Source: Cladocopium goreaui
Taxonomy: Eukaryota > Sar > Dinophyceae > Suessiales > Symbiodiniaceae
Assembly: GCA_947184155.2 (NCBI GenBank)
Contig: CAMXCT020001403.1
Location: 81,916 to 145,915 of the forward strand
Length of the DNA stretch: 64,000 bases
Direction: 5' to 3'
The notes beneath the pieces are model-generated. The model had not been told where the DNA came from. It ran no database searches and was given only the letters and a program-made list of their open reading frames with translations. Made by a program: the position numbers and the translations under genes. How positions within the stretch are numbered: position 1 is the first letter of the stretch; the number at the start of each line of letters is the position of its first letter. Positions 6,251 to 51,724 of this stretch are shown in pieces.

Positions 6251-6348
6251 TTTCACATGAAAGAAGTGAATTCTTTTTGCCATTACATGTTTCAGACCTT
6301 GTCTTTTCGCACAATAGCACCGGGCGCTCCGTAGCAGTGCAAGCCTTC

Positions 6349-8895: not shown

Positions 8896-10095
8896 ATGGC
8901 CCTGGTTGACTCGACAGCTTCTTTTGAGAAGCGTTGCAACGAGCTGCAAGACGGGTTGCATGAAGTCTTCAGTGACGCTGGTATCAACACCTTCTCGTCA
9001 CTCGCTTTTGCAGTTGGCACGCCTCAGAGTGCACCAGCTGATGATGACATGCAGAGGTTTACAGACAGATTGATGGGCGGCCCAGCAACATTAGCAGATC
9101 TGTCTGTGGTCAAGCGCATTCACTTCGAGGCAGTCACTTTGGTCATGGTCGACCTCCAGAAGCATTCGTCAGCCCAAGACATTTCAGAACCAGGGCGTAG
9201 CCTACCGTTTGTCGAGAAACAGCGGAGACTGGCAGCGCAACAGGCCAGAATCACTGGGATCAGCCACAAGCACGAGCAGCAGGCGTCTCATGCTTTGATC
9301 GACGCATGTTTCCAGATGATTGAGAATGGCTCTTTAGTTTACATAGCCCCATCGAAGTGTGGGTCGCGAGATCAGGAGATACAACAGGATTCAAAGACAA
9401 GGCAGAAGCAGCTGATCACCGTAGAACAGGGAGCCTTGAAGACGGTTGCGAGTCCAAACCTACCTGTTGTTGACGTGGGTACGGAATTACGATTGATGTA
9501 CGCCCTGCAAAGGCGTGGTTTGGCGTTTGACCTCGTAGGTCTTATGTCTTGGGAAACGCATACGGATTGGAGCAATAAGCTCTTCAGGGCCCTTATGGCT
9601 GATGCAATTCCGAACTTCAGCCCAATCTCCATTGACCAGTTGTTGCGTGCAGACCAGGAACTTTTCTTGCTCCTAGCAGCTGAGCACACTGGTGCGTTGA
9701 AAGCCGCTGCAGCAGACGCGGATCCACCTCTTGACCAAGAAGTTCGCAGGCTCATGAATGACCCCAGGATCAACGTCCATCTCACTCCGATTCAACGAGT
9801 TGAGAAACGACCAGCACCAATTGGCTCACCTTCCCAAGGGCCTCCAAACAGGAACAACACGAACAAGAAGCAGAAAGGAGAAGTGCCCAAGACACCTAGC
9901 CAGGTGCCAAATGAGCTGCAGGGGTTGCATACAAAAACCAAAGATGGAAAGCCTATTTGTTGGCGCAGAAACCTGAAAAGAGGTTGCCGCAACGCGGTGA
10001 AGAATGGGCGATGCCGATTTGGGTATCATACATGTATGAAGTGCTTAAAGCCAGGGCATGGAGCAGCAGAATGCAGTGGAGAAAGGGCCTCGTGA
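8896..10095 (+). CDS. Gag-like protein with CCHC zinc knuckle (inner element)
   Basis: A 399-residue protein from the ATG at 8896. It would bind and package the element RNA. The N-terminal region is mostly helical. A basic, Pro/Gln/Asn-rich linker (about 9790-9900) precedes the Cys-rich end CWRRNLKRGCRNAVKNGRC and a classical zinc knuckle CMKCLKPGHGAAEC (CX2CX4HX4C, near 10036-10077). The single TGA at 10093-10095 is followed by CAA, and the same frame then stays open into the MT-RT ORF. Gag and Pol could thus be linked by stop-codon readthrough. Confidence 0.85.
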   Translation: MALVDSTASFEKRCNELQDGLHEVFSDAGINTFSSLAFAVGTPQSAPADDDMQRFTDRLMGGPATLADLSVVKRIHFEAVTLVMVDLQKHSSAQDISEPGRSLPFVEKQRRLAAQQARITGISHKHEQQASHALIDACFQMIENGSLVYIAPSKCGSRDQEIQQDSKTRQKQLITVEQGALKTVASPNLPVVDVGTELRLMYALQRRGLAFDLVGLMSWETHTDWSNKLFRALMADAIPNFSPISIDQLLRADQELFLLLAAEHTGALKAAAADADPPLDQEVRRLMNDPRINVHLTPIQRVEKRPAPIGSPSQGPPNRNNTNKKQKGEVPKTPSQVPNELQGLHTKTKDGKPICWRRNLKRGCRNAVKNGRCRFGYHTCMKCLKPGHGAAECSGERAS

Positions 10096-10176
10096 CAAAC
10101 CAGGCAACGCAGCCGCAGTCCGAGATCACCTCTGGTCAAGCCGTTTGTGAACAAGGACCTTGTGGCAAATACAGAT

Positions 10177-12114
10177 ATGCATGTTTTTTCTGACTCTGAG
10201 CCGAAAAACCACGGCGCTGAGCAAACTGGAGGTGGTAACAGTGTTTTGGCTGACGACCACATCTCTGGACCAAGTCTTTTTCGAGCCTCGCCTGAACTTG
10301 TCAGCGATGCGCTCCCAAGGAATTCAAAGCGATCCTGTCTTGTCCTGGAAGTTTTTTCTGGTAGCTGCAGGCTCTCAAAGGCCTGTCGCAATGCTGGCTT
10401 TAGAGTGACAGCAGTTGACAAGGATGAGACCAGGGCAGAAAATTTTGCAATTTACAAGTGCGACCTCACCAATGCCGAGGACCTCGCGCTACTTTTTCAA
10501 TATGTCGAGGCCGAAAAGGAAGAGCTGTTGCATGTGCACTTTGCACCCAGCTGTGGAACGGCGTCCAGGGCACGTGAAAAAGCTCCTGGACCTCCTCCAT
10601 TGCGATCAGACGAACACCCTGATGGACTGCCAGGGTTGAACGAACAAAATAGAGCCAGGGTCGCTGCAGCCAACGACAGTTACAAAGCCATGTTGGAGCT
10701 TGCAAAATATGTCATTTCTTTGAACATCAGCATCAGCATTGAGAATCCAAAGAACTCACTTTTCTGGAAATGCACATTTGTCCAAGCGTTCTTGCGGTGG
10801 TTGCCACAACACCACGTTTGCGAGTTTCAGCACTGTATGCACGGAGGTAAAAGAAACAAATTTACACACTGGTTGAGTTGCAACCCTCGCAATTTGCAAA
10901 AAGACATGTTTGAATCACTGCATCTCTTATGTGACCAAACGCACCAACATGCAAGTTGGGCATCTTTTATTGATGAAAACGGAAAGCAAGTTTTTCCTAC
11001 CGCAAGTGAAGCAGCATACCCTGAGCTGTTGTGCAGTCGCATTGCATATATTCTCAAAGAAGAAGCTTTGAAAAACAATTTTCATTTTCCCAATGATTTG
11101 AATGAACAACTGTGTGTGGAACCTAGTGTGGCTAAACGTCAAGTTTTCACCACACAGCCAAGAGGAAAACGACTGAGACCACTGGTGTCAGAATTTCAAG
11201 CGTATCGCTCAGTGCTTTTTCCTTTGAATTGCGAACATGTCATACAACAATTTTTACAAGACCTACCACGAGGTTCCAGAATTTGTCATCGTTCTCTCAC
11301 ACATGGGGGTATTTTCTGGGATGACAATTCAGCAAAAGCGTCCAATGTGGTGGCACATGGTGACTGGATAGATGGGCAACCTGGAGAAATCATACATTTT
11401 GGCATTCCACGTGAACCTGCAGACTTTGTCAATGAAGCATTTGCCAAAGGGCATCCTAGAGATGTTGTTGCGAAAGTACCTCCGTCGGTCAAAGCCCTTC
11501 TGAAAGATTTGGTTGCCGGGAAAAGAGAAAGACGTTTTGAAAAGCGCGCCACTTTCATGAAGAAGTGGCTAAAGCGCTCCCTGGAGTTGCGCGCGGATGA
11601 GGTAAAGCTGCATCAGAAACTGCCGCCCCACCTGGGCAAAATCCTTAGAGGAAAGCGCTTGTTGCTCTTCAAAGAAATTCTCATTGATTTACAATACAAA
11701 GATGTTAGCATTGTGGATGATATAATTTCTGGTTTCAAGCTCACTGGATGGGCGCCTCAGACAGGCGTGTTCGACCCTGACGTACGCCGACCTCAACTGA
11801 CGGTTGAGCAGCTTACCAAGATGGCTCCTGGGATTAATGCTCGGGTCATCAGATCTGTGGATGAAGCGCCAGCAGACCAGACAACTGAGCATGTTTGGGC
11901 AGAGACGTGGGCAGAAGTGGATAAAGGCTGGTTGCGGCCTGCTGATTCTTCAAAGGACTGCTCTGTTGCCAAGCGGTTCGGTTTGCAACAAAAGAACAAA
12001 ATACGCATGATTGATGACTTCAGTGTCAGCCGAATAAACCATACTTATGGCATGCGGGAGAGACTTCGTCCAGTCAGTGGACGAGCTATGTGCGTATCTT
12101 GCCACCCTGCTTGA
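10177..12114 (+). CDS. MT-like domain fused to the N-terminal part of reverse transcriptase (inner element)
   Basis: The frame is open without a stop from 10096, directly after the Gag TGA; the first ATG is at 10177. Order: acidic leader; MT-like domain with motif I VLEVFSGSCRLSKACRNAGF (about 10345), acidic strand-2 residue in AVDKDE, motif IV-like HFAPSCGTASRARE (about 10540-10580, Cys kept although PC reads SC) and motif VI-like ISIENPKNSLFW (about 10735); then HGGKRNKFTHW and FPTASEAAYPELLC (about 10995-11035); a linker; the RT N-terminal region; and KIRMIDDFSVSRINHTYG (about 12000-12045). After that motif the frame continues into unrelated sequence and stops at 12114, while RT proceeds in the overlapping frame. 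The MT-like domain resembles cytosine-C5 methyltransferases; its substrate is unknown. Confidence 0.83.
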   Translation: MHVFSDSEPKNHGAEQTGGGNSVLADDHISGPSLFRASPELVSDALPRNSKRSCLVLEVFSGSCRLSKACRNAGFRVTAVDKDETRAENFAIYKCDLTNAEDLALLFQYVEAEKEELLHVHFAPSCGTASRAREKAPGPPPLRSDEHPDGLPGLNEQNRARVAAANDSYKAMLELAKYVISLNISISIENPKNSLFWKCTFVQAFLRWLPQHHVCEFQHCMHGGKRNKFTHWLSCNPRNLQKDMFESLHLLCDQTHQHASWASFIDENGKQVFPTASEAAYPELLCSRIAYILKEEALKNNFHFPNDLNEQLCVEPSVAKRQVFTTQPRGKRLRPLVSEFQAYRSVLFPLNCEHVIQQFLQDLPRGSRICHRSLTHGGIFWDDNSAKASNVVAHGDWIDGQPGEIIHFGIPREPADFVNEAFAKGHPRDVVAKVPPSVKALLKDLVAGKRERRFEKRATFMKKWLKRSLELRADEVKLHQKLPPHLGKILRGKRLLLFKEILIDLQYKDVSIVDDIISGFKLTGWAPQTGVFDPDVRRPQLTVEQLTKMAPGINARVIRSVDEAPADQTTEHVWAETWAEVDKGWLRPADSSKDCSVAKRFGLQQKNKIRMIDDFSVSRINHTYGMRERLRPVSGRAMCVSCHPA

Positions 12115-13405
12115 CAACCATGCACCTTGTGAACTCCCGAGAATAAAGGGGAGAACATTTGACTTGCGATCAGCTTACAAACAGTTTGGTGTGGATCAAT
12201 GGCACAGCGAGTTCCTTCAAATTTGCGTCAAAAACCCTGAAGGGGGTCATGGTTTATTTGGCGTCAATGCTTTGCCCTTCGGGGCAACTGGCAGTGTCAC
12301 TAGCTTCCTTAGAGTGTCCAATGCACTGGCTTACATCGGACACCATGGACTAGATCTCATTTGGTCGGCTTTCTTTGACGACTACACTGCTATCTGCACA
12401 GAGTCTGAAGAGGACAATGTGACCTTTTATATTAAGTCACTCTTTAGAATGCTTGGCATTGACTTCGCAACAGAAGGAGACAAGGCTCCTCCATTTCAAT
12501 CCAAGTTCAAGACACTGGGCTTGGAGTTCAATTTGGAAAACCTCAACACAGGGAGTTTCTTTCTACAGCACACTGAAAACAGGCGGAGTGAACTTGTCAC
12601 CACTATTGATGCTTTGATGGAACGCAGTGGAGCGTCTCCTAAAGAACTGGAGAGATTACATGGTAGGCTTGTATGGTTCAATGCATTTGTTTTTGGACGT
12701 TTAATGAATCACGCTGTCAGAACTCTGTCAATGGCTTGTCACTCAAATGAGAAATTCTTGCCTTTCACTGTTGACCTGCGTTGCGCTCTTGAACAATTAC
12801 GACGTTTGCTGATTGACAGTACGCCTCTGAGAATAAGTAAAGCGTTGGGCACTGCTTGGATCATATTTACTGATGGAGCTTATGAACCCGATTCTCCACA
12901 CCCTTCCACTGTGGGAGGCATTCTAGTCAGTCCTTGCGGTGTGATCACCGAATACTTCGGAGAACAACTCATGCAGACACTCACTGAAGATCTTTTACAT
13001 GAATCCAAACACCCAATCTATGAACTGGAAGTGCTGCCGCCACTCTTGGCTCTGCAAGCCTGGGGCCATTACATCACTGGAGCACCTGTCGTGTTCTATT
13101 TAGACAACGATGCAGCAAGGTCAGCCTATGTACAAGGTGTTGGATCAACTCGGATGGCAAAATTATTCACAAGACAATTTGTAGACCTTGAGAGCCGCTT
13201 GCAAGTGCTGTCTTGGTTCGGCAGAGTACCAAGCCACAGCAACCCCTCGGACGAACCTTCACGCTTAAATTTCAGCAGTGCCCTCTTGAAAAATTCCAAA
13301 AGAATAAGGATCCAATTTCCAGTACACTTTGAGGAAACCGGGGGTGGCTTCGGGTGTACTGGAGAAGCATGCCTGAAACAACAGGTCTCCAGCATACAAA
13401 CCTGA
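12047..13405 (+). CDS. Reverse transcriptase core and RNase H (inner element)
   Basis: Copies element RNA into DNA and degrades the RNA strand. RT motifs in order: GRTFDLRSAYKQF (catalytic Asp, about 12150-12190), LPFGATGSVTSFLRVS (about 12270-12320) and AFFDDYTAI (FDD catalytic pair, about 12370). RNase H follows: Asp in WIIFTDGAYE (about 12860), Glu in YELEVLPPL (about 13020), Asp in VFYLDNDAA (about 13095) and a last Asp in HSNPSDEPSR (about 13240). The true junction with the upstream ORF lies at about 12058-12072, where one extra base separates MREr from QSVDELCAYLA. The ORF's own ATG at 12047 is thus probably not a real start. The end of the ORF overlaps repeat B1. Confidence 0.88.
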   Translation: MACGRDFVQSVDELCAYLATLLDNHAPCELPRIKGRTFDLRSAYKQFGVDQWHSEFLQICVKNPEGGHGLFGVNALPFGATGSVTSFLRVSNALAYIGHHGLDLIWSAFFDDYTAICTESEEDNVTFYIKSLFRMLGIDFATEGDKAPPFQSKFKTLGLEFNLENLNTGSFFLQHTENRRSELVTTIDALMERSGASPKELERLHGRLVWFNAFVFGRLMNHAVRTLSMACHSNEKFLPFTVDLRCALEQLRRLLIDSTPLRISKALGTAWIIFTDGAYEPDSPHPSTVGGILVSPCGVITEYFGEQLMQTLTEDLLHESKHPIYELEVLPPLLALQAWGHYITGAPVVFYLDNDAARSAYVQGVGSTRMAKLFTRQFVDLESRLQVLSWFGRVPSHSNPSDEPSRLNFSSALLKNSKRIRIQFPVHFEETGGGFGCTGEACLKQQVSSIQT

Positions 13406-13687
13406 GACTTTTCCCCATTGCCCTCGACAAAAAAGTGTGCTGATTGGAAACGTTTGAATTTTTTCACTACTGGCAATGTGTGATCAATTTGTGATGTATC
13501 AATCATGTCAGTGCATTCATTTGCTGTGCAAGTTCAGACGTCACTTTTATTTTTTCGGTTGGCGCTACGACGACGTAACCCGACATAGCGCGGCGTGATA
13601 TATATATATATATGATACTTTATATGTACATATATATATATATGTTATATGTTGGGTTTGTGCAGCGTTTTGCTAATAGGGAAATAA
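13356..13687 (+). repeat. B1: split direct repeat of the inner element
   Basis: A 332-bp segment, repeated as B2 at 14127-14460. It overlaps the last 50 bp of the RNase H ORF. It is joined directly to A2. The copies differ only in TA-repeat length near 13600-13645. Confidence 0.92.
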
Positions 13688-14065
13688 GCTGGAACTCTTC
13701 GAAGAAGATGAAAGCCTTATTTCCCAAGCAAGCAAATTTTTGTTTAGCCAAACATTTGGCTAAGAAACAAAAAAGGTGCACAAACTTCTGGCATATCTTC
13801 TAGAGTATTTCTAGAAAGCATCTGACAAATTTGGTCAAACCTTTTTGACACCAACTCATTGTCCAACTCCGTATTTCATTGACAATTTTATAACACAAAC
13901 TGTCAAACTTATTTAAACAGTCACACTGTGATCAATTAAATCATTTCAGTTGCGTCACTTGCATCTAATCTGCCTGATGTCAAGTATATATATCTCTGCA
14001 ACTGTGATCATTCAAGGTGTGGGTGGGTAGGGTTCCTCAAACATTTTCATGAGGATTCAAAAATT
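13688..14065 (+). repeat. A2: second copy of the left repeat (inner element)
   Basis: A 378-bp copy of A1 (5699-6076) starting at the same GCTGGAACTC and ending at the same base, followed by a 61-bp unique spacer (14066-14126) and B2. Position between B1 and B2 is the hallmark of split direct repeats. Confidence 0.93.
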
Positions 14066-14126
14066 CCCGCCCAATCTTCTCCCACCCTTGTTTCGAATCC
14101 TTTGTTTCACCCTACTTTATAGCCTC

Positions 14127-14460
14127 GTACTGGAGAAGCATGCCTGAAACAACAGGTCTCCAGCATACAAACCTGAGACTTTTCCCCATTGCCCTCGACA
14201 AAAAAGTGTGCTGATTGGAAACGTTTGAATTTTTTCACTACTGGCAATGTGTGATCAATTTGTGATGTATCAATCATGTCAGTGCATTCATTTGCTGTGC
14301 AAGTTCAGACGTCACTTTTATTTTTTCGGTTGGCGCTACGACGACGTAACCCGACATAGCGCGGCGTGATATATATATATATATGTATGATACTTTATAT
14401 GTACATATATATATATGTTATATGTTGGGTTTGTGCAGCGTTTTGCTAATAGGGAAATAA
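14127..14460 (+). repeat. B2: right terminal repeat of the inner element
   Basis: A 334-bp copy of B1 that ends the element at GGGAAATAA. The next base, 14461, is RT coding sequence of the outer element. Confidence 0.92.
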
Positions 14461-15002
14461 TGATGTCAGAATCGGCGGCAGCCGGCATTTCTGGCGATGA
14501 ATGGATGGGCAAGACCTTCGACCTTAGCAAGGCTTACAAACAACTTGCCATTCTTCCTGCCCACCAGAGGCATGCAGTGGTAGGATTTCCTGTGAGTGGC
14601 ACCTGGAGATTCTATCGAAGTATCTCCCTTCCTTTCGGTTGCACTGGTAGCGTGTATGGCTTCGTGAGGGTGTCACAAGCAATATGGTACATAGTGACTA
14701 GGCTGCTATCTGCAGTATCAAGTCATTATTTTGATGACTTCCCCACTTTGGAAAGAGCCCCAGGCTGCAGGGTGCTTTCTCTTGCGTTCAGCGCAGTGCT
14801 GGACATGCTGGGTTGGGGACACGCAAAAGAGGGCGATAAAGCGTTGAACTTTGCTGGTGCCTTTGACTTGTTGGGCGTGAACTTCAACCTTGCTTTGACT
14901 CCCAAGGGGATTTTGCAGGTCACCAACAAAACTACGAGGATCGAAAAGCTGTGCGCTCTTTTGGACAAGGTCAAGAGCGAGGACTCACTCAACCACAGGT
15001 GA
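14461..15002 (+). pseudogene. Reverse transcriptase core, continued (outer element)
   Basis: Continuation of the RT begun at 5263-5698. Motifs: GKTFDLSKAYKQLAI (catalytic Asp, about 14510-14555), LPFGCTGSVYGFVRVS (about 14630-14675) and HYFDDFPTL (FDD pair, about 14725-14750), then EGDKALNFAGAFDLLGVNF. A stop at 15000-15002 interrupts the frame after KVKSEDSLNHR. In the inner element this region is followed by roughly 75 more residues of thumb/connection before RNase H. They are missing here, so a deletion and frame change occurred at about 14995-15015. Confidence 0.85.
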
Positions 15003-15018
15003 AAGAAGGCCAATACTC

Positions 15019-15579
15019 TTGTTCACGGATGGTGCTTGGGAAGATGGCCAAGCGTCTGCAGGTGCCATTCTGGTTGATGGAGATTTTCGCATTGGGTGCA
15101 CCATAACTGTACCCGACACGCTGGTTGCCCATTGGTTGAAGCATGCAGGTGAGCAAATCATCTCTCAGATTGAACTTTGGGCCCTCGTAGCAATCAGATG
15201 GCATTTCCGTGAGCGACTTGAAAGCCGCAGGTTAATCTCTTGGGTCGACAATGAAGCTGCAAGAGTTTGTGCAATAAAGGCTTCGAGCCCGTCGCCAGCC
15301 ATGAGGGCTCTCACGAGAGCTCTGGCAGACATGGAAGTAGCATGGCCAGTTTTTGCTTGGACGGAACGCGTATGCTCGTTCTCCAATCCCGGAGATTTGC
15401 CATCGCGACATAAACTGAGTGAAGCCATGCGTCGCTTCAATGTTTCTGACGGGGGCATTGTTGACGCCACCGCCGAACTTGCCACAACAATAGTTGGACT
15501 CCATGAACGACCTTTTAGTGCTGCTCTCCTTTTCCACAGGGGCACAACACCTGAGCACCAAACACGAAATGCCAGTTGA
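15019..15579 (+). pseudogene. RNase H domain (outer element)
   Basis: RNase H of the broken pol gene. Catalytic residues are visible: Asp in LFTDGAWEDG (about 15020), Glu in SQIELWALVAIRW (about 15165), Asp in SWVDNEAARV (about 15240) and the final Asp in NPGDLPSRHK (about 15395). It is in a different frame from the preceding RT fragment because of the deletion near 15000. The C-terminal end overlaps repeat B1 of the outer element, as in the inner element. Confidence 0.83.
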
Positions 15580-39905: not shown

Positions 39906-42900
39906 TCACTTCACACAGTCTGGTCCAATGGTTTCTGTGAATTCTGTGCAAACCATGGCCAAGATTGTGTCCTTTACATCTGCGGGAATGTGATGCTGGC
40001 TGCTTGGCATCGGCATTGATGCTAAAAACGTGGCAAAACTGGCAGCAAATGCACTGCACAGCGCCGGCGGATACTCCTTGAGTACCGCAGTACGGAAATG
40101 ACCCTCTTGGTCAAGTCCAATTGATCGACCTTTGGGAAGCTCTGCACTGATTGCATTGGCTCGAAGATGAAGAGGCAAGGACGGCAGGTTGAGTGTCAAC
40201 AGCGTCGTGCTTTTGGCACTGTCAGCACCAAGGAGTCCCTGAGCAAATGTGACCTTCTCGAAGCCCGGCAGAGTCAGGAGAAGCTGGATGAGAGGAAGCT
40301 TCCATATGCTTGGGCTGCCTGTGTCGGAAGGTTCAGCAGGATGCTCCAAAATGCCACTGCCGTCAACCTCGTCAAGGAGGATCATGCAGATAATGCTAAA
40401 CGCCAAGAGCTTGTGGCCGTCCATGATCTGGCGCTTCTCTCTGAGTGAGAGTGACCAGAATCCCCATAGATCCTCCGCAGATCGAATGGGTCGGGGCCCA
40501 GTCTTGCCCTGTCGTTGCATGGTCATGTCCACTTTGCCCCTCGCTGCGGACCACGTGCAACAGGGGGGACCTCCAAGCATCCCAAGGACGTATCCACTGC
40601 GAATGGCATTCGTCCAAAATTGGTACGACTCAGGTCTGCCGATATCACCCCATTGCTGGTCAATCACCAAGTCAAGTGATACTACAAAGAGCATCTCAAT
40701 GCCAGTTCTCTCCGCGGTGGCGTCGAGGTACCACTGGAAGTCCCCGTAGCGCCTGCGGCCTGAGTAGGCATGCACCACCACACGTTCTTGAAAATGGACG
40801 CGAGGAACCGTCGGCTCGACGAAGCGTGGGGGATCATGAGCTTGTAGTTCTCTGCACCAGTCTTCATAATGCGGCAGCGCAAGATCTTGGTCCGTTGACC
40901 GTTCGCAGAAATCCTCTGCAAGGAAGCTCCACTGACGGAAGTCCGCAAGGCGATAGAGCAGCTGTCTCCACTCCATTAGGCCAAGGTGGGCCAAGTTGGC
41001 ATCTTCGAGCGTGAGGGACTCTGCAATGTAGTGTAATGTCCGTTTGGTCATCGTCCAACTCACAGGGTGGGTCTGGATGCGCTCATAAAGTTCGTGAAAA
41101 AGGTCTCGTTCTGGTTGGTCCTGATGATCAAAACATGCCGAGACCAAATCTTCATAAAGACTGTCACAGAAATGTTCATCAGCACGTGGTCTGTGGCGCG
41201 CATCTTTAGGTCCTTGTGCTTGCAAAGTGGGCACAAGTCCATCGTGCGCTCTATGGAGTCTCTCATTGGCAAGAGAACCCTTTCCTGGTGCAGGTACCGC
41301 GTGTTGACGTTGTCCTTGAAGAAGATGTCGACATTGCGCAGTGCATCGCAAATGTTGTTGAAGTTTAGCAAAGGTGTGGTACTCCCGCAAGCATGATGGA
41401 CAAGTCGTTCCATCATAAAGGCGTCGGACTGGTGCCACGATGCCATGTGCTCGACAGAGATGTGCACCTTCTTCTCCATGACTCTTGAATCTCTTGCTAC
41501 AGCGCATGCATCCAAAGATCTGATGGTCTTGCGTAGGGGCTGGTTGATAGAGCTGCGGTCGATAGGCCAGCGGTCCCTTGTCGGCCAAGAATCCAAAAGC
41601 ATCTCGGTGCAAACGTAGAAGCAATAAACGATCTTCTGAATGCAAAAGTTCAAGCTGCACTGCTCGTTGAAGAAGTCGTTTCCAATAGGTTCGATGGTAG
41701 CGGAGCACATTTTCCCATGGACCAAAATGATCACGTGGCGCCGGGAGCGTCGTGGTCGAGCAAACAAGGTCCCAGAGCCACTGTAGGTCATCACAAAGCA
41801 AGGCCATCCATTGCGAGTCGGCTCGCAGTACAGCCCATGGTGTGACATGTTCGCACTTGTAGAGGAGAGCAAGATAGCGAAGTCTGGCTACTCGTAGCAC
41901 TGTGGTCGGTTGTGGCAGGCCAAGAATGACTGAGACTTCCTCGTCGGACATGGGCTTGTCATGAGGCAGCTTCATCAGGCGGCGATAAAGGCGCATGTAG
42001 GCACTGTGAAAATACTGCTTGTTGATCTTGTCCATGAGCGTCCATGACTCGGTCCCATACGTAACCTTGCTAGCCACCAAAGTCTGGAATAACTCACTGC
42101 GCTTCCGCAATGGAAGGTGACCATTTTGGAAGAGAGTCTTCCGATGTTGCGTGAAGGTCTGGTGACCTTGGGCAACTTTCCTTCTCATCTCGTAGCGCGT
42201 CTCTCCACTATGATGAATGAGTCCACCTAGATGTTGATAGTGCCCGACAACGACAATCTCTCTGCTGCCTCCTTCAGTCAGAATAGTCATCTTGCCGGCA
42301 GTGGATGGACCGAAGTATTTGTTGCGGAGTGGTCTGGAGCCTTTGCCTCTGAAGGCAAATAAGATCTCACTTTTCCCTCGTTGAAGGTTCGGTGTGACCC
42401 CATGGCGTTGACAAGCATCCAGAAGAATTCCACATGCAACACCAGTCTTGGTCTCAATGGCCTGGGCTGTTGGAGCGGAAACTGTGACGCACAAGTCATC
42501 CATCCAAGTTGGCCCTAAAAAGGGCAGAGGCCTTGTCGGTGCCCTGGCACTTGGAAAAAGGCCATTGGTCTCGGCATCCTCGAAATGTTCAATCAGGTCG
42601 GCTTGTATCATTTGAGCCTCTACCGATTTGAGGATTCGAGAAAACATGTACCCAAACACCACATCGGCGAATGGGTCGCCGGGTCGAGTGCCAACTGCCG
42701 TGCGCACATAGTCTGTCTGGCCAGCAACCCAAAAGTGCGTATCAGTATGCAAGGCCCGAAGAGCAACTTGAAGATGTTGGGGTAGACCAGCAAGTTCCGT
42801 AGCAGATGGACTCTGCAGGAGTTCATGAAGGTCGTGAAGAATTTGATCATCAAGGTTCAAGCGAGCAGCAATTTGTCCCAAAACCGCGTCTGGAAGAGTG

Positions 42901-44228
42901 CCACCGACCGCCAGAGGGCGGATGACGCGATAAAAGGCTTCCTGCAAGTCCAGGAAAATGAGTCCTGACGATGCACGTTGCTGTTTTGCCCGTCTCAACG
43001 TCGCTCGGACGTGATGGACACCAAGTCCTACAGGCACTCGCTTTCGACCTCCAATCTGACTTCTCTGTAAGAAGCATTCATACAAGCTGGATTGTTGCTC
43101 GCGAATCACTCGATGCAGAGTCTTCCCCACGTGTGAGCTGATCAACAAAGAACGATAGGAACTGCATTCTTGTTGTGCTCCTTTGCGCTTCCACGCTGAC
43201 ACAAGGAGACCTCCTTTGTGGAGTAGCGCTTCTTGGCCATGCGCCAGGAGTTTCAGCATCTGCGTGTATGTGAGTCTCGCCATGGTCACAGGTTGGCAGT
43301 GACATAGCTCTGGTGGGATGTCATCAGCACCAATAGCTTTACCTGGTCGAACTCGTCGAAAAGCTCGTTCAAGATCTGTCAGCCTTGGAATATCCTCTGG
43401 CTGGAGGCGGAGCCCGTCAGGAATGCACTCCTGTAGATTCTGCTTCCAGAGGTTTCTCAGCTGCCTCTCATCCATCCTGGTTCCCCCTTCCATGGCTCCG
43501 AAAAAGTTGGCCCATCGATCGGTCAATTCCTGTGGGGTACGACATGGACGACCATTCTCATCGTTGACCATAGGTAATGGCATCTCTCTCCGGTGTCGCA
43601 TGTTTGTGGGTCCAATCAATGGCTTGAGGGCTTGGAGGATGTCACTGGCGTGGCATTCCGGTGGCAAGGTCGAGACTGCGTCTCGAAGGGCTTGTCCTCG
43701 TGCTTCACGCAGCTTTCTTCTTAGAGCAAAGTTGGAACGCTGAAATTGAACTCCATGTTTAAGAAGTGCACATTGTAATGAGATAGCAAAGGTCTCGCCA
43801 GGGACATCAATTTCCGGTTGGTTCCAACAGGCAAATGCTCTCGCAAGCAATTCTCTGGCCTGCATGCGACGGAGTTGACGAAGACGACGACCTGCTTGAA
43901 GTTTCTGAGCTCGAAGCGCCCACATCTCCTCTGTGATGAAGGGCTTTTTGGGGCCAGTTTTGCGTTTGGGGCAATGGCTTTGTAATGTCTGGACAAGATG
44001 TTGATTGCAATGATCAACCTGTGTTGCAATGTCCGCATCCCAATCCAAAGGCACATAGCCGCAGAGTTGTGGTCCCAGTGTGCTGTGAGCAATGGCAGTA
44101 CGGTCATAGTTTCTGGCATTGTGTCCATTTGATGGGCTGTGCGAGGAGAATTGAAACCACTGCACTTCCAGTCCGACAGCTGTATGATCCCCAATGTTGC
44201 CCAAATCCAGTTCCGGAATCGTTCTGGA
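39906..44228 (-). CDS. LINE ORF2, C-terminal part: reverse transcriptase, Cys/His fingers and MT-like domain
   Basis: Begins with the last endonuclease motif ([16 protein letters not shown]). RT motifs, numbered from 44204: [11 protein letters not shown] (about 285), [11 protein letters not shown] with catalytic Asp (about 417), [14 protein letters not shown] (about 510), and TWMDDLCV with the Asp pair (about 565). Two Cys/His fingers follow: CMRCSKRF...HLCRAH (about 895-920) and CPSCLREY...LQQHLRC (about 938-960). The last ~290 residues are methyltransferase-like: [17 protein letters not shown] (about 1140), [13 protein letters not shown] (about 1209, very close to the PC loop of cytosine-C5 methyltransferases), ILEHPAEP (about 1288) and [14 protein letters not shown] (about 1370). 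RT would perform target-primed reverse transcription in the nucleus. The role of the MT-like domain is unknown; DNA or RNA modification of the element is an inference. Confidence 0.85.
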
Positions 44229-45148
44229 AGTGGTACACGAAGAAAACCATGAGATAGGGTTTGTTGGTCCCCTTGGTGGCGATCACTGGTAGCTGGGAGA
44301 CAAAGGCAATGCGTCTCCAGTAGTTCCCGTAGGAATCCTGTGCCACTGGTATGCTTGTCATCTTGCTGGAAGACATGTCTAGCATCCTGTTCACCAGACG
44401 CCGCATTCGCATCGATGAGGAGAACTAAATCTTTGTCTTGAACAGCGTCCTGAATGCTGATCATTGTGTCATTCCACCAATCAGCACGTTCTGAATGTGG
44501 AATACCGCTTTGCGGAGCATAGATGACAGCAATCATGAAGTCCAAGTGTAGATTGTGAACACGTACAAGCATACATCTTGGGCTGGCGAAGGTGACCACA
44601 ATATCTTTCTTGGTGAAGTAAAGGGGTCGACCACTTTGCCAACCATATGGTTGATTGAGGTTCACCCACAATTCCACTCCTTGGTGTCCATGATAGTCGC
44701 CACTGGCCAGTCGAAGAACAGATGCTGTGGTCGTCGAGCAGGCTGTTGTGCGAGTCTCTTGCAATCCAAGAAAATGGAGGTGGAGGTGTTTGAATTGTTC
44801 TCGCACATAATGCAACTTGCCAGGTGTACCATCAGCACCCTTGTAGAAGGTGCGGACATTTGCCGTTGCAAAACTCAAAGCCACATCTGTGCGCACTGTG
44901 TGTTGCTCTGCAGTTGAGACGGTGTGAGATGCATCCTCTGGGAGCTGTGGCGGTGGAATGGCAAGCCCTCCGTCACAGGATCTGGGCAAATCTCCGTCCT
45001 GTGCCAGGACCATCCAAAGTACACGCAAAATGCGCCCAAAGGTGGGCATGTTGATCTGCTGCCGTGGAAGGTACTGACTGTCTCGTCCTTCAAGCTTGGC
45101 AAAATGATCTACCAACTCATTGTAGGATATTGTAGGGCTCCCCTGCAT
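44205..45148 (-). pseudogene. LINE ORF2, middle part: end of RNase H and APE-type endonuclease
   Basis: Begins with the C-terminal RNase H helix (YNELVDHFAK). The endonuclease would nick target DNA to prime reverse transcription. Motifs of the exonuclease-endonuclease-phosphatase fold: Asn in FATANVRTF (residue 97 of this ORF), Glu in FLGLQETRT (131), VIYAPQSG (209-215), and D-x-N in LLIDANAAS (246-248). The final SDH-type motif (GDHTAV) is in the next ORF. A frameshift at about 44200-44230 therefore separates the last strands from the rest. The frame itself stays open to 43721, but that part is a shadow of the RT ORF. Confidence 0.82.
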
Positions 45149-48100
45149 GACTGCGTGTATGTGAAACTCGCAGATGATCTTCAGGTAAAATTGCTTCTAG
45201 CGCTTGAAAAGCAGCTCGAAGATGACAAAAGGGAGTACTCGGTGAACTGGTTCCAAGAGTCCCAGAGGCTTGTCCACCCACCAGAAGAGAGTCAGTCACA
45301 AAGATAGTCGGGAGCCTGTGGTTCTGTGCAAGCCGCCAAAGAGCGCTCCACAACAGTGCCTCGGTTTCTGCTGCATCGGAGCCGATGTGATCTGTACCAA
45401 CATGATGAGGACGATCTGGTTCATAAAGGATCTGTTGACAAGTCAGGCCAATGAACTCCAGGTTTCGTCCAGAATTGTCATCTTGGTCAGGGTACTGTTC
45501 CGCAAAAACGGCAAAGCACCAAGAGTCGCTCACTTCATGCAGGTCAGTCCATAGAGGCGAGCAATGTCTTTTCTTGCTCTGAGAGGATCCATCCGCATAA
45601 ATGATCAATCTGTCATGTCGAGAGAGCGGTCGACATTGCGCGATGGCCTCTTGTATGAAGTCTGGCACCTCATATGGAGTGATGTCTGTAATCAACTGCA
45701 GAGGTGGCGCATTGAAAAATGCTTGAAGCTCCTGACAGTCTACCTCAATGACATGCGCAGATCGTGATCGATCAAAACCTTTATCAAAGAAAGGTTTGGT
45801 CATGTTGATTTGCAGTGGCTGTGGTGAGGGCCAAGGTGTGGGCAACCTCAGTGGTTTGTGGTCCTCTTCATGCTTGGGCTCCACGTTGCAAAAATGCAAG
45901 AACGTGACATAGTCATTGACGTGTTCACGGTGCGTAATCACTGCTTTGTGAAAACCCTTCCGATATAGTATCTTCATGTGAGTGATGTCATCCTCCGCAG
46001 GAATTCCACGTTGCACATGAATGCCATTCTTAGTGGTCGTGTCCTGGTTGCAATAGATGTGCATCACTTCATGATGGAAGATACGAGGCTGAAAATACAC
46101 GGCATCATGCTGGCCACATGAGAAAACTTCACCTTCATAGCCCATGCTGTGAAGTTCTTGACGAACTTGTTCAGGTGTGCCTGGAACTTCAACCTCCACA
46201 AAGTGTGGGATTTGGGTGGAAGATCTGTAGGTCGGTGGCCAGTGGATGTAGATAATGCCTGTGGCAGGGCAAGGAGGTTCCATGTCCTCTTCCAAGATGG
46301 AGGGTGTGCAGGTTGATGTATCCAATCGTGGCCCATGGGTGTGAGCCACCTGCCCATGTGTTTGGCGCTCACGATGGATGATTTGCACTTTTGTTTGAAG
46401 AAGGTTGGTGCCGTCGCGCATGTCTTGATAGGTAGGTCTCCTGTGCATTTGGATCAGAAGTCCTTGTCCATTGCGAGCAGGAAAGACCGTTCCCGGCTGG
46501 ATGAGGAATCGATCATACCAAGTCTGGCATGTCATCGCAGCCCCTGTCGCAAGGCATCGTCCGGCCAGTCCCAATGCCATCAGCAAGTTCTGAACATACA
46601 TGTGTTCATGGGTGGTGATTGCAAGTTGCATTGTAACAGCACGTCTTGCATGACTAAGATCGACCACTGTCGTCAGAACGGTGGCAAAGACTTCATGCGG
46701 CCGCTGGATCAGGAGCACATGAGCTGCCGTCTCGCGATGTGTGTTGATGGGAGTGGGAGTCACGACCTGAATGATCGATGGCATTGCTGGATTCAACATA
46801 TCCTGCCACGTCTGGCGGATTTGAGCTTCCCACTGCGTATAGTCCTCGTAAAGACGGACTGTTCTGGGCCGAGTGCATGTCCAGAAATTTTGGTCGTGTT
46901 GATCGACGAACCATGTTTGGATCCTGGTTGATGCTGTTTCACCCTCCCAACTAAACGCAGTCCGGATCCAGTGTTGGTGTAGTTCTTGGATCTCTTCAGG
47001 CATTGTATTCAAGTTGGGGGTCAGTGGATTGAATGCTGGTGCTCCAGGATTGAAGACGAAACGTGCACATCGTCTGCTGGTTGATGACGTTGCAAGTCCA
47101 TCATTTGGTGCGTGCGCATCATCTGCTGGTGTAGAAGGCTCACGTCTCCATCTGGTGCGGGAGCGTTGCATGAGCTCCATATGGTCATCGTCATCCTGCG
47201 GCAAGATGAGAGGTCGTATGTGGATGACCAAGCTGGCGGCCCGAGGTATTTCTACCCAATCAGCAAGACCAAAGGGCAGAGCTCCAAGTCTGACAGCACA
47301 TAGTCTGGCTTGGCAGTAGATGAACATCTCGGCCAGGTGCAGCACATTGCGCTCTGTCATGATGTTGGGAAGTGAGTAGGCCCCATGCCTCGTGGAATCT
47401 CCATGTCGGTCGCGGACGTGTATGGTGATAAGTCCAACACCATGTTGAGGTCTTGTGGATTGTTCTAGAATCAAATGGACAAGAACACACTCTGTCATGG
47501 CACACGGCGGGGGCGGTTGCACCAAATGTATGGTCGTGGCCAAGTTGGGGTCAATGATATCTTGCCATAGTTCCAGAATGTCAGTCCTCCACCTGGTGGG
47601 ATCGGCTCCAAGTCTGATGGGTCGTGCTTCGCGACAAATGGTTTGTCGTTGGCGATGGATGTACCATGTGTCAATGTAGGCAATTTCGCCTTCATCACTG
47701 CATTCAATGAGTGCATCTCTGTCAAACCAGTTCCTCAGTCGTTGAAGATCACCTTGATGGAAATCCTGTGTCGGTGCAGCAGGGCGTTGGTCTTGTTGTG
47801 TTGATCCTGGAAGTCCAATAGGTCTGCCCGTCGTAACGTGGTCAGGTGCAACTTTGCATGTGGCTGGTTCCAGATTGTGTAGCAGGTTGGCACAGTCCTG
47901 CTTGAGGTGTCGCATCGCTTTTTGGAAAAGGTTGACTTCCTCAGTATCATTTGTGATCAGGCCTTCTTCCGCACTCTCGTTGTTTCCCAAATCAAGATCT
48001 GACAAGCATGTCTCAGAGTTTGGCAAGTCGCCCACAAAGATCCTGATATAGTCTCCATCTGCCATGTACAAGTTCTCCGTGGCTTGCTCCTCAATGAGTA

Positions 48101-49931
48101 CATTGTTTCTCCAAACATGGCATGGTTGATCTTGGGCATCACATAGTTCTCCCAGGCCAAGTTCATTCAGGAGGCCAGCTCTTGTGAGAATGTGTGGAAT
48201 CCATGTTGGGAATCTGCGGAAGGGCGAAGTCTGTACATTCTGCTCTACATGTAGTTCTCTGTCAATCAAAACGAGACGAACATATGGAGATGGTCGAAAC
48301 TCGGTGGACCGCTGGAGCAACATACAATGTAGGTGGACTGGCTCATAGTCCAAAGGTCTGTGTGGTACTGCGACAACTCGCAAGATGTTTCTTCTGCCAA
48401 AGTTCAGAGCAGCTGCAATTTGACCAAAAAGTGCATCCGGATCACTCCATGGAAGTTGAGCTGATGTGGACAGTCCATCCATGGTGAAGATAACCGTTTG
48501 TCTCCAGTCCAATCCACGTTCAGTTGAGGACACCGTCTCAGGCGAATTTGACGTAGATGATACCTCAATCGGTTGCCGTCGGGCAGGCCGATGTGGTCTT
48601 CTTCCCATGAAGGGAACGGCGTCTTCAGGATCCTGAGGTTGTCCATTTGCTCCCGTAGGATCAGGTCGCGGATGGTCTGCTTCTGGCGGTCCTTCGGGAA
48701 CTTCAGGAGGGTCCCAGCTGTCTCCTTGTCTGTGGTGTCGTTGTTGTTGTACTCGACGGCAGAGATTTTGTTCCGCCTCTTCAATGGAAAGAGAAGAGGG
48801 GATGCGGATGTGTACACTCAGTCCATGAAAAGTGGCGATGTCTTGATCATCGGGTTGTAGTTGATGACCAATGTGGACTGTGCAGCGATCAATTCCTTGT
48901 TGCTCACGCTGAAGACAAATTTGTTCCACACCCGCCAAATGTCGGACTCGTGCAGGAGGAAGTAGGAGATCAGTCGAGTGAGCAGAATGTCGGAAGGTGG
49001 TCACTGGGTCCATGATGTGCACTGCAGTGATGAGGCACGCAGCCCGGTCTGCTCTGTAATGTTGGTGCACAATGACGGTGGCTACCGTTCCTCGGAAAGG
49101 GATGTGTGGTGGTTCAGGACGTACAATGACAATGTCCAATGAGGCTTGGTTGTCCACCATGTCTTCCCATATGAACCGTACATCAGCCTCCCATTCTTGG
49201 TATTCCTGGTCAAAGCGCAGGATTCTAGGCTCATCATGAAACCTGTGTGTCTCGTGGTCAATGTAAAAGGAGCTGACCATGATGACCGGACCTTCTTCTT
49301 CATCACTCACTTCTCCTTCTTCTTCCAGCAGTTGTCGTATATTCTGTCCCCAAGACGGCATATGGACGTCTCCTCGAGGAGGTCGATGGTGACCTGGTCC
49401 AGGGGTGGCATCAGTGGTGTCAGCAGCGCCAGCGCTCGGGAACATGGTGGCTGCCTCAACTGGGGGAGCAGTATTCTCTCCATTGGCGTAGTCAATGAGG
49501 CTGTGGCCAGCAGGACACTGCCATTGATCTGCATTGAAGTCAAAATTGATGTTGGAAAATTCTCCTCCTCGAAGTAGACCCGCACTCCAAGGCATTGTAC
49601 CATTGCCAAGACATACATCGGGAACGGTGATCTTGTACATGGTTAACTCATCATCCAGGCCCATCAGAACATCAACGTCCGAAGCAAAACCCAAGCTTCG
49701 ACGAGGTGAAGGAGCCATGTGTGTGAGCGTAGCTGATTTTGTGTCACTGGAGATTCCATCATAGGTCCCCAATTCGAATGCAAGGGAACGCGCATTCTCA
49801 ATGGCGGCGAACTCATTGATGAAGTTGTACTCCTCGACAATGCTGTGGGACCATTTGAGGACAGCAACTTCGCCTGAAATGGCATGGCTGTCGATTGTCT
49901 GTGGCTTCAGGTTGGCATACTGTGCAGTCAT
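45117..49931 (-). CDS. LINE ORF2, N-terminal part: triplicated domain and RNase H
   Basis: 1604 residues from the ATG at 49931-49929. A domain of unknown function occurs three times, near residues 220, 755 and 1005. Each has an aromatic start (FYIDHETHRF, TWYIHRQRQTI, TWFVDQHDQNFW), then R-x-[IV]-R-[LF]...W...I...W-[EQ]-D, then a strand ending in V.P.P. At about residues 1440-1604 is RNase H: Asp in LIIYADGSS, Glu in AETEALLWSA, Asp in FVTDSLLVGG and His in HTRSHAGEPYN. The RNase H is cut short by a 10-bp tandem duplication (ATTGTAGGAT on the + strand, 45119-45128, copied at 45129 onwards), which shifts the frame to a stop at 45117. The rest of RNase H (YNELVDHFAKLEG) continues in the next frame. 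RNase H lies upstream of the endonuclease and RT here, which is unusual. Confidence 0.8.
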   Translation of the reverse strand: MTAQYANLKPQTIDSHAISGEVAVLKWSHSIVEEYNFINEFAAIENARSLAFELGTYDGISSDTKSATLTHMAPSPRRSLGFASDVDVLMGLDDELTMYKITVPDVCLGNGTMPWSAGLLRGGEFSNINFDFNADQWQCPAGHSLIDYANGENTAPPVEAATMFPSAGAADTTDATPGPGHHRPPRGDVHMPSWGQNIRQLLEEEGEVSDEEEGPVIMVSSFYIDHETHRFHDEPRILRFDQEYQEWEADVRFIWEDMVDNQASLDIVIVRPEPPHIPFRGTVATVIVHQHYRADRAACLITAVHIMDPVTTFRHSAHSTDLLLPPARVRHLAGVEQICLQREQQGIDRCTVHIGHQLQPDDQDIATFHGLSVHIRIPSSLSIEEAEQNLCRRVQQQRHHRQGDSWDPPEVPEGPPEADHPRPDPTGANGQPQDPEDAVPFMGRRPHRPARRQPIEVSSTSNSPETVSSTERGLDWRQTVIFTMDGLSTSAQLPWSDPDALFGQIAAALNFGRRNILRVVAVPHRPLDYEPVHLHCMLLQRSTEFRPSPYVRLVLIDRELHVEQNVQTSPFRRFPTWIPHILTRAGLLNELGLGELCDAQDQPCHVWRNNVLIEEQATENLYMADGDYIRIFVGDLPNSETCLSDLDLGNNESAEEGLITNDTEEVNLFQKAMRHLKQDCANLLHNLEPATCKVAPDHVTTGRPIGLPGSTQQDQRPAAPTQDFHQGDLQRLRNWFDRDALIECSDEGEIAYIDTWYIHRQRQTICREARPIRLGADPTRWRTDILELWQDIIDPNLATTIHLVQPPPPCAMTECVLVHLILEQSTRPQHGVGLITIHVRDRHGDSTRHGAYSLPNIMTERNVLHLAEMFIYCQARLCAVRLGALPFGLADWVEIPRAASLVIHIRPLILPQDDDDHMELMQRSRTRWRREPSTPADDAHAPNDGLATSSTSRRCARFVFNPGAPAFNPLTPNLNTMPEEIQELHQHWIRTAFSWEGETASTRIQTWFVDQHDQNFWTCTRPRTVRLYEDYTQWEAQIRQTWQDMLNPAMPSIIQVVTPTPINTHRETAAHVLLIQRPHEVFATVLTTVVDLSHARRAVTMQLAITTHEHMYVQNLLMALGLAGRCLATGAAMTCQTWYDRFLIQPGTVFPARNGQGLLIQMHRRPTYQDMRDGTNLLQTKVQIIHRERQTHGQVAHTHGPRLDTSTCTPSILEEDMEPPCPATGIIYIHWPPTYRSSTQIPHFVEVEVPGTPEQVRQELHSMGYEGEVFSCGQHDAVYFQPRIFHHEVMHIYCNQDTTTKNGIHVQRGIPAEDDITHMKILYRKGFHKAVITHREHVNDYVTFLHFCNVEPKHEEDHKPLRLPTPWPSPQPLQINMTKPFFDKGFDRSRSAHVIEVDCQELQAFFNAPPLQLITDITPYEVPDFIQEAIAQCRPLSRHDRLIIYADGSSQSKKRHCSPLWTDLHEVSDSWCFAVFAEQYPDQDDNSGRNLEFIGLTCQQILYEPDRPHHVGTDHIGSDAAETEALLWSALWRLAQNHRLPTIFVTDSLLVGGQASGTLGTSSPSTPFCHLRAAFQALEAILPEDHLRVSHTRSHAGEPYNILQ

Positions 49932-49933
49932 AC

Positions 49934-51169
49934 TCAACCAGCCTTGCCAAAATGCGGCTTGGATCCGTCTCCAGATGCCATATTTTGGTCTTCGTCCTTG
50001 GGTTGCATGGTGCGCTGTCTTTTGGCAGCATGGTTCTCCTCTGCGATCATGGCTTCTGCTTCTTGATGTAGAGATTGAAGGGAGGTCGCCAAGCCTTCCA
50101 TCGTCTCTGTGATCTTGACAGAGGCTTGTAATGCCGCTGCTGTTTCTGGATCCTCGGTCTCGTCGTCCGAGTTGATCTGTTGGACATCGCCAGCACCCAA
50201 TTTGGCTTGCTTGCAGGTCTCCAAGTCCTTCTTGGCTGTCAGCAGTGATTCTTTGTGAGTGATCACCTGCTCCTGCAGCTTCTGTTCCTGCTCCATGAAT
50301 TGAGCAGCATATGTCCTCCATAGTTGGACCGCGTCCGATAGAAACTTCTTCCACATTGCATGATGTTGGCTGCATGCAAGAACCGCATCGTCGTAGTTCT
50401 GCCTGGCCGTATCCAACGCCGTCACCGCAGCATGGAGGTCGGTCGATGTCTGCTGGCCGAACTTGGTGAGGACCTTCTGAACCTTCTGCTGCATGTCCTC
50501 CGGCAATTCCGCTTGTCGTCCTCTCATCATGGACATCAATCCTCTTACTTCTGCATCTGCAGCATTGCTGGATGGCACCGAAGTCACGGTCATCTTTGGC
50601 ATCGCTGGTGCAGGCATCGTGGGCATTGATGATACGAAGTTCCCACTCATGTTGGGTGCAGGTCCCGGCATGGGTGCCGGCATCTTCGCCATGTTTTGTG
50701 GCGGCGGTGGCGGTAGCGGGGGCATGCTTCCTGCCATCTGCTGCATGGGGAATGGCATGATCTGCTGAGGATACATCGTGGGCATCTGAGGTATTGTGCC
50801 CATTGGACCCATGTAGGCCTGAGGGGCCATGGGCGGCATCATCATTTGGGCCGGCTGATGTGTCGTGGGTGCTTGCTCCTGTTTCGGAGTCTTCTTCGCG
50901 CTCCTTGGTCTCTGTCGCTGTCTCGGCGAGGGCGTACGTCCTCTGGAGTTCGAAGAGTTCCAATGAGCTTGCCAATCTTGCTGCTGTTGCCATGGTGAAC
51001 CGTAATGCTGACCTTGGTCCTGTTGCGATGTCTGCTTCGAGCCATGCACGTAGGACTGGTCGATCACGTTTTGCCATGGTTGCTGGCAGTTGGTGCAGTA
51101 CAAGGCTGTATGTTTCCTCAGCTGTCTGCAAATTCTGCACTTCCACGGTGCTCGATCTGATGACGCCAT
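49934..51169 (-). CDS. LINE ORF1: zinc-finger and coiled-coil RNA-binding protein
   Basis: 411 residues from the ATG at 51169-51167 (MASSDRAPWKC); the frame is open further upstream but this start precedes the first domain. N-terminal finger WKCRIC...YCTNCQQPW (CX2CX10CX2C, RanBP2-like spacing). A basic Arg/Ser/Pro/Gln-rich stretch follows, then a long Met/Pro-rich low-complexity region (MPPLPPPPPQNMAKM). The C-terminal half is helical and likely coiled coil (AAVTALDTARQNYDDAVL through EQEQKLQEQVITHKESLL), ending in an acidic tail. ORF1 proteins of LINEs coat the element RNA and act as chaperones; this architecture fits. The TGA at 49936-49934 is 2 nt before the ORF2 ATG, which suggests termination-reinitiation. 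Confidence 0.8.
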   Translation of the reverse strand: MASSDRAPWKCRICRQLRKHTALYCTNCQQPWQNVIDQSYVHGSKQTSQQDQGQHYGSPWQQQQDWQAHWNSSNSRGRTPSPRQRQRPRSAKKTPKQEQAPTTHQPAQMMMPPMAPQAYMGPMGTIPQMPTMYPQQIMPFPMQQMAGSMPPLPPPPPQNMAKMPAPMPGPAPNMSGNFVSSMPTMPAPAMPKMTVTSVPSSNAADAEVRGLMSMMRGRQAELPEDMQQKVQKVLTKFGQQTSTDLHAAVTALDTARQNYDDAVLACSQHHAMWKKFLSDAVQLWRTYAAQFMEQEQKLQEQVITHKESLLTAKKDLETCKQAKLGAGDVQQINSDDETEDPETAAALQASVKITETMEGLATSLQSLHQEAEAMIAEENHAAKRQRTMQPKDEDQNMASGDGSKPHFGKAG

Positions 51170-51724
51170 TGTTGATGTAATTCTGCGAAGGAAATGAATA
51201 TCCTTCGAATGATGTCCTCCAAGAACTCGTGCGATGTGTCTTCTCCTGGCTGGTGTAAGCAGGAGGATTCCCTTTCGATGCAAAAACCAGGCCCTCCGGG
51301 CGGCCGCTCTTCTCCGCCGCTGTTGCCGGCGATGCGTCGCAGTCGTCGTCAGCAGTCAGAGTCCTCAGGGGGAGCGCACTCTCCGAGACAAGCAAGATCA
51401 CAAAGACGAAGAGGAGCAAAAAGACCATGTAAAAGTCAACCGCAGTCAGGACGGTGGCAAACTCGGGCAGGATCAAGTCAAACTGTCCCAAGATGATGCG
51501 AAGCCCGACCGCGAAGACAATGTACACGTGACCAGTGCAAGAACAGGTGGTGTCGGGTGGTCAATCCGACAGAGCACGTTCCGTAGGTGCCAGGGCGAAC
51601 CAGTTGAGCACCAGACGGCAAAGGCCAAGCTATTGCAAAGGCCCGCGGGCAAGAGGTCACAGGTGCCCGCTAAGGAATGAGCGTGGGGGGTCAGACAAAC
51701 ACGTCGTCCCTCAGCCAAAACCTT
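51170..51724 (-). promoter_or_regulatory. 5' leader of the LINE
   Basis: About 555 bp between the presumed 5' end and the ORF1 ATG. The ORF2 frame is open through most of it and through ORF1, which is an overlap shadow and not coding. Internal promoters usually lie here in LINEs; no motif is identifiable by eye. Confidence 0.4.

Follow-up and report, generated by a model that had tools for sequence, protein, structure and literature searches.

A methyltransferase-like domain shared by a LINE and two tyrosine-recombinase retrotransposons of the dinoflagellate Cladocopium goreaui

The 64,000-nt stretch of DNA analyzed here (the window; contig C1403, 81916-145915) is part of a 1.17-Gb assembly, in which the genome-wide searches were done. 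The 21-mer of the dinoflagellate spliced leader was present in this assembly in 172 exact copies, compared to 0 for the reversed control, which identifies the host as a dinoflagellate; the window itself contained no copy. The minus strand of the window carries a LINE, whose frame at 39906-44282 has RT-like motifs (A, 42924-42959; B, 42633-42692; MDD, 42480-42503), two C2H2-like fingers (within 41331-41510), and a C-terminal methyltransferase (MT)-like domain (39909-40919; designated P0011), the last of these identified with profile comparisons and a genome search. The RT-like and finger motifs were recognized by eye and had no match in Pfam or the PDB at E values up to 1. An endonuclease-like frame (43721-45196, minus strand), which is not the frame of the RT, matched Exo_endo_phos with an E value of 0.056, below the cut-off; this match and the endonuclease-like and RT motifs seen by eye are the evidence for the LINE class. 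Farther 5' is a frame (45117-51560, minus strand) without a Pfam match. Because the 5', endonuclease, and RT-MT parts are in three different frames, this copy looks broken. Motifs like those of RNase H, again recognized visually, precede the endonuclease-like part (45129-45605, within the 5' frame, and 44402-44875, both minus strand), and the order of the parts, from motifs seen by eye, is RNase H, endonuclease, RT, fingers, MT. In usual LINEs, RNase H comes after RT.

Two tyrosine-recombinase (YR) retrotransposons are located on the plus strand. The 5' part of YR element 1 (357-5698) comprises a tyrosine-recombinase-like region (357-2105) and a gag-like region (2529-3869), both recognized by eye, an MT-like domain (3922-4824, in the frame 3886-4851), and the start of Pol, which seems to resume at 14391-15579, past the nested YR element 2. 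The latter (5699-14421) has split repeats in the A-coding-B-A-B arrangement of DIRS-type elements (A, 5699-5998; B, 13356-13650; A, 13688-13987; B, 14127-14421). Between them are YR-like (6238-8298), gag-like (8872-10095), MT plus Pol (10096-12114), and RT-RNase H (12038-13405) frames; the MT-like domain (10306-11202) shares its frame with the start of Pol, and the RT matched RVT_1 of Pfam with an E value of 2.6e-4, below the curated cut-off. Thus, one DIRS-like element seems to have inserted into the Pol of another. The A repeats of YR element 2 are 100 % identical over 300 nt, which suggests that the insertion was perhaps recent, and the B repeats are 95 % identical.

A reading made from the sequence only had proposed that one domain is common to the C terminus of the LINE ORF2 and to the two YR elements, and profile, HMM, and shuffle tests confirmed this. 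The ∼300 residues at the C terminus of the LINE frame aligned with the YR MT domains over 243 columns (hhalign, 97.7 %, E 2.4e-12) with a score of 93, compared to a maximum of 33.5 among 40 block shuffles, so that the mutual similarity is far above the shuffled background. It is hardly credible that the motifs arose by chance or convergence in unrelated domains; BLASTP alone gave a nonsignificant E value of 0.093 for YR element 2 versus the LINE, but the profile, HMM, and shuffle tests all contradict unrelatedness.

In order to locate the similarity, the domain was split into three blocks, with 25 shuffles of each. The middle block, spanning the PC loop through the E[NH]P motif, aligned between LINE and YR with an E value of 9.5e-13, and the C-terminal block aligned with an E value of 1.3e-4; none of the 25 shuffles scored as high in either case. 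The N-terminal, SAM-loop block gave an E value of 0.13, and 2 of the 25 shuffles scored as high. By these tests, the shared motif order that had been proposed is upheld for the stretch between the PC loop and E[NH]P and for the C-terminal block, with no significant similarity at the SAM loop of the LINE. Both the LINE and YR domains have RARxK...GPxPxR...LxG as an additional block that separates the P-C loop from E[NH]P. In the window LINE, the PC loop is at 40533-40574, the LEHP motif at 40338-40349, and the C-terminal block, placed from the block alignments, at 40056-40097 (all minus strand); LEHP presumably corresponds in position to motif VI in C5 methyltransferases. The candidate SAM loop of the LINE (40740-40772, minus strand) had no significant similarity to the YR or phage blocks and is a conjecture.

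The retention of catalytic-type Cys and Glu residues in both families, also proposed from the sequence, was borne out in the alignments. The PC-loop Cys was found in 35/35 LINE and 28/28 YR rows, and the Glu of E[NH]P in 35/35 and 27/28, with Gln in the remaining YR row (Glu167). Other invariant residues in the 35 LINE rows, in which the Cys and Glu are Cys120 and Glu192, were Trp123, Arg127, Arg146, His193, Pro194, Lys236, and Thr238 and, toward the C terminus, Glu282, Tyr283, Pro284, and Cys288. Gly54, Asp60, and Asp83 were each conserved in 34/35 rows, with a gap in the other. The 28 YR rows were invariant at Cys96, Arg101, Arg103, Arg121, Asn168, Pro169, Lys213, and Thr215 and, in the C-terminal part, at His235, His237, Trp240, Glu255, Tyr258, and Pro259, and position 68 was Asp in 23, Asn in 4, and a gap in 1. 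A C-x3-H-x-H-x2-W motif in the YR domain (4576-4605 in element 1 and 10930-10959 in element 2) retained its Cys in 27/28 rows and both His residues and the Trp in 28/28; it was not seen in the LINE alignment. This motif could bind metal.

The domain is under strong purifying selection. Ka/Ks values for the LINE domain were 0.05 to 0.12 in 19 pairs with a Ks of 0.05 to 1 for which upstream sequence was also available, and in 18 of these pairs the value was not above that of the upstream coding part. Values for the YR domain were 0.05 to 0.25 in 20 of 21 pairs and 0.55 in one close pair. These overlapping pairs are not independent.

The nearest known relatives of the YR version appear, from these comparisons, to be the short phage proteins of phrog_757, for which "DNA methyltransferase" is the annotation name. 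Members of this group are found in phages and archaeal viruses, for example, Inoviridae MW202486, Bacillus phage BM15, and Haloferax tailed virus 1. They have the same motif order (AGS..., D, SPPC/LPCGT, IENP, KPT/KxT, and IPxxL/YPxxLC) and are likewise short and without a target recognition domain (TRD), but they are stand-alone proteins of ∼220 to 256 amino acids without the RARxK...GPxPxR block. A tblastn search of phages with one YR member and one divergent LINE member yielded a 16 % motif-I match to an Inoviridae protein (E 0.02), with other matches weaker, and the Inoviridae protein led to further phrog_757 members. At E values of ≤1, phrog_363 was matched by 10/23 and phrog_757 by 8/23 YR members (best E, 6.7e-5); several single YR members matched phrog_757 weakly or had no match, and the best phrog_757 row spanned motif I to ENP. 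At the profile level, the YR family aligned end to end with a 7-row phrog_757 profile (96.1 %, E 3.1e-9, 216 columns) and with a 39-row phage profile (94.6 %, E 7.1e-8) with a score of 60.7, compared to a maximum of 29.3 in 30 block shuffles. The N-terminal block had the greatest similarity (E 1.1e-10, a score reached by 1/25 block shuffles), and the middle (E 0.0055) and C-terminal (E 0.0083; 0/25 shuffles as high) blocks matched weakly. No LINE member matched phrog_757 itself. Direct comparison of the LINE with the phage profiles was marginal (E 0.0012 with 7 rows and 0.0048 with 39 rows; score of 28.3 versus a shuffled maximum of 25.9 in 30), with block E values of 0.013 for the N-terminal block (3/25 shuffles as high), 2.5e-5 for the middle block over 14 columns only, and 0.025 for the C-terminal block. 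No relatives of the single proteins or of the families were detected in IMG/VR and GTDB genomes with back-translated peptides. In Bacillus phages CM1 and BM15, three annotated DNA methyltransferase genes are adjacent (C5 type in BM15), and the middle one is of the short phrog_757 type.

Membership in PF00145, which the sequence-only reading had put up for checking, was not found. PF00145 was detected at E values of ≤1 in 4/23 LINE members (best, 0.021) and 1/23 YR members (0.051), below the curated cut-off, and the Pfam scan of the window proteins gave no match to it. In the scan of LINE members, the unrelated family FWWh (3/23; E 0.0078) outscored PF00145, and the only PDB match of the LINE profile was an unrelated hydrolase (E 0.056). 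Direct searches of the domains against Pfam, NCBIfam (YR only), and the PDB yielded no confident match; the best YR matches were motif-I matches to general methyltransferases (Methyltransf_23, 0.0017; TehB, 0.0046; PDB 7zgt, 0.023). At an E value of ≤1e-3, neither the LINE nor the YR profile detected any of 24 canonical DNA methyltransferase (DNMT) representatives. The earlier description of the LINE PC loop as C5-like was upheld by hhalign against a canonical profile (55.9 %, E 1.1e-4, 19 columns around the loop); the similarity of the LINE to canonical DNMTs resides in ∼20 columns at this loop, where the alignments of both the LINE and YR families to the canonical profile stop. A pooled LINE and YR profile aligned with the 24 canonical DNMTs over 72 columns (90 %, E 1.5e-6), with a score of 52.9 compared to a shuffled maximum of 27.3 in 40, and a looser alignment placed motif I on motif I and PC loop on PC loop. 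Among the phage members, 5/6 tested exceeded the cut-off of PF00145, with alignments that reached profile positions 113-124, and one (L183) did not; the canonical DNMT and phage profiles aligned over 109 columns (96.4 %, E 1.4e-9).

The motif numbers are those in general use for C5 methyltransferases. In both families, the P-C motif with its Cys is followed by the E-N motif with its Glu in the order of PF00145, with His in place of Asn in the LINE. The G-S loop of the YR domain matched motif I (the F-x-G-x-G SAM loop) of the phage proteins and, weakly, that of other methyltransferases; the N-terminal block of the LINE had no significant similarity to motif-I blocks. The QxRxR motif VIII, TRD, and motif X of C5 methylases were not encountered in the LINE or YR domains. 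Only ∼31 (YR element 1) or ∼36 (LINE) residues separate the K-x-T block from the C-terminal block, which appear to be too few for a usual TRD. Judged from these alignments, the LINE is tied to the YR family via the catalytic half, and the YR family is tied to methyltransferases via the SAM half; the LINE would thus be linked to PF00145 weakly, mostly via the YR family and phrog_757.

SAM binding is likely in the YR domain; the LINE domain may bind SAM and may be catalytic. It is possible, if unlikely, that the LINE version has lost SAM binding and is a noncatalytic nucleic-acid-binding or scaffolding domain, with only the YR version an enzyme. The N-terminal block of the LINE was not homologous to motif I by test, RRR is invariant at the place of motif I in 23/23 LINE rows, and EHP replaces ENP or ENV, which counts against an enzyme; the GRRRxGD of the LINE is unlike the usual motif I. 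However, the Cys and Glu, which a pure binding role would not need, are retained in 35/35 LINE rows, and the acidic positions Asp83 and Asp92 are each kept in 34/35 (a gap and a Thr, respectively, in the remaining row).

Many copies of these domains were found in the genome. First-look candidates numbered 3402 for the LINE domain, 3492 for the YR domain, and 5077 for P0016 (see below), most of which were not scored. Among the scored part of the LINE candidates there were 119 matches, all with E values of ≤3e-73; the open frame around the match was ≥3,000 codons long for 35 of the 119, and in one of the 35 a stop interrupts the matching part. The same genome has canonical PF00145 DNMTs, with 125 matches among 2685 candidates. 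Three of these were on contig C1 (7.38 Mb), which resembles a bacterial chromosome although it is part of this assembly and carries bacterial-type DNMTs (e.g., 2459259-2460266). Contig C1 also holds 22 of the 150 best rows for the rve integrase, 15 of which have the same score and a 383-amino-acid frame, as copies of an insertion sequence might.

In a phylogenetic tree, LINE (support, 100/99), YR (99/91), and phage (100/100) rows formed three separate clades. The separation of the LINE and YR clades excludes a recent exchange between the sequences in this tree. Being unrooted, the tree is silent on which two clades are closest, and the program warned of long branches; independent captures from one source and a single ancient exchange fit it equally well. 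Of the earlier proposal that the domain was captured twice or exchanged, recent exchange among these rows is thus set aside, and two captures and an old exchange both fit.

When phrog_757 was searched against the genome, 130 of the 150 matches listed were in open frames of 90 to 237 amino acids (best E, 6.9e-18). Many of these short frames (e.g., C1335:1171860-1172378) were 213 amino acids long with the same score, and they may represent another short phage-type methyltransferase in a multicopy element. The other 20 matches were mostly in longer frames, about half of them of ∼1035 to 1077 amino acids; those in ∼1035-amino-acid frames, taken as YR-type by length only, reached an E value of 7.3e-8. 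One match, on contig C190, was in a frame of 2603 amino acids. The domain in this frame, designated P0016, had at least 150 matches in the genome. It scored 32 bits against the YR profile (E 3.7e-12 in a one-sequence search), 18 bits against the phage profile, and hardly at all (6.8 bits) against the LINE profile, its tblastn matches were to YR loci only (E 1.8e-5 to 7.7e-4), and its tree branch was very long. In 4 of the best 150 rows of the P0016 search, the rve integrase shared strand, neighborhood, and open-frame length with the domain (C2757, 2820 amino acids; C2, 2288; C1574, 1550; and C1891, 2484), and on C1478 an rve row adjoined in a different frame, making five adjoining places. The rve-associated rows were 31 to 33 % identical to P0016. 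None of the rve matches listed was beside the C190 domain itself, and by eye no Copia RT (PF07727) adjoined the third domain family among the best 150 rows. With an integrase but no RT, Copia and Gypsy elements are indistinguishable. This distant relative in frames with rve is perhaps a third carrier class, probably LTR-type.

We favor, with moderate confidence, the interpretation that the domain is a short, TRD-less C5-methyltransferase-like domain of the phrog_757 type that marks the DNA of its element in cis. Such a domain would consist of motif I, the P-C loop, E-N-P, K-x-T, and the Y-P-x-x-L-C end plus the extra block. The LINE carries it at the C terminus of its ORF2-type protein, and YR/DIRS-like elements carry it in Pol before the RT; a more distant relative shares frames with an rve integrase. 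Tethered to the RT through the polyprotein or particle, it would most probably act in cis, methylating cytosines of the cDNA made from its own element or of the target site during insertion, in order to make the new copy resemble the methylated host genome. Catalysis, DNA rather than RNA as the substrate, and this purpose are what we infer from the sequences. As a functional precedent, some of the DNMTs of Symbiodinium retrotransposons carry out de novo CG methylation (PMC5890265). CpG observed/expected ratios were 0.69 for the LINE, 0.64 for YR element 2, 0.53 for YR element 1, and 0.56 to 0.58 for the rest, and thus a clear trace of additional CpG methylation and decay was not apparent; in a genome that is already methylated, this ratio is neither for nor against methylation.

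An active methyltransferase with an RNA substrate (element RNA, primer RNA, or tRNA) seems improbable. The domain sits in proteins of retroelements, which handle their RNA, and RNA was proposed as the substrate of SymbioLINE-Dnmt, because the one tested left yeast DNA unmethylated (de Mendoza et al. 2018; PMC5890265). However, the nearest relatives are annotated as DNA methyltransferases in phages, and the weak matches in Pfam (LINE and YR) and NCBIfam (YR only) did not include any family of RNA methyltransferases.

If DNA is marked, jumping genes may carry a tool for the chemical marking of their own copies. Tentatively, it could be proposed that a phage-type family invisible to PF00145 is a standard accessory of three unrelated classes in a dinoflagellate (LINE, YR/DIRS-like, and integrase-bearing LTR-type), possibly in thousands of copies, beside the canonical DNMT genes, and that base modification of cDNA is a general need of retrotransposition in such nuclei. 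Dinoflagellate retrotransposons with DNA methyltransferases, detected through the Pfam C5 model, are already known. If a second family, common to unrelated element classes and strongly constrained by purifying selection, was missed by that model, the marking of cDNA would be something that dinoflagellate nuclei repeatedly require and not just a curiosity. The family provides a concrete link of phage-type methyltransferases to eukaryotic retroelements and is open to expression and assay.

Among titles and abstract openings in the open PMC literature, nothing pointed to this domain except PMC5890265, which concerns the PF00145 kind. It is very improbable that the domain is simply the published SymbioLINE-Dnmt or SymbioDIRS-Dnmt3, even though the kind of host, the two element classes, and the broad enzyme superfamily are the same and, in both cases, LINE and DIRS-like elements of dinoflagellates carry a domain of the cytosine methyltransferase type. 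As described in PMC5890265, the PF00145 DNMTs of the Symbiodinium LINE were found with the Pfam model and are in ORF1, upstream of the RT ORF, whereas the present domain largely escapes that model, does not retrieve canonical representatives, and is C-terminal of the RT-like motifs in the same frame. SymbioDIRS elements have Dnmt3 in Pol and a split-repeat arrangement like the A-coding-B-A-B repeats of YR element 2, but the present YR domain, compared with the published description, is below the PF00145 cut-off and has ENP, not ENV. DIRS elements with Dam-like domains (PMC5890265) resemble the YR elements in having a methyltransferase-type domain in Pol. In the Pfam scan of the 23 YR members, none of the matches at E ≤ 1 was to a Dam family. 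A Cys loop with ENP is of the C5 type, not the N6-adenine type. The possible integrase-bearing class is like KnitGypsy-Dnmt3 of the charophyte Klebsormidium in that a DNMT is associated with an LTR-type retrotransposon, but the latter is of the Dnmt3 type (PMC5890265). By these tests, and as far as the published descriptions go, the domain differs from the SymbioLINE and SymbioDIRS DNMTs in family, motif VI, and place.
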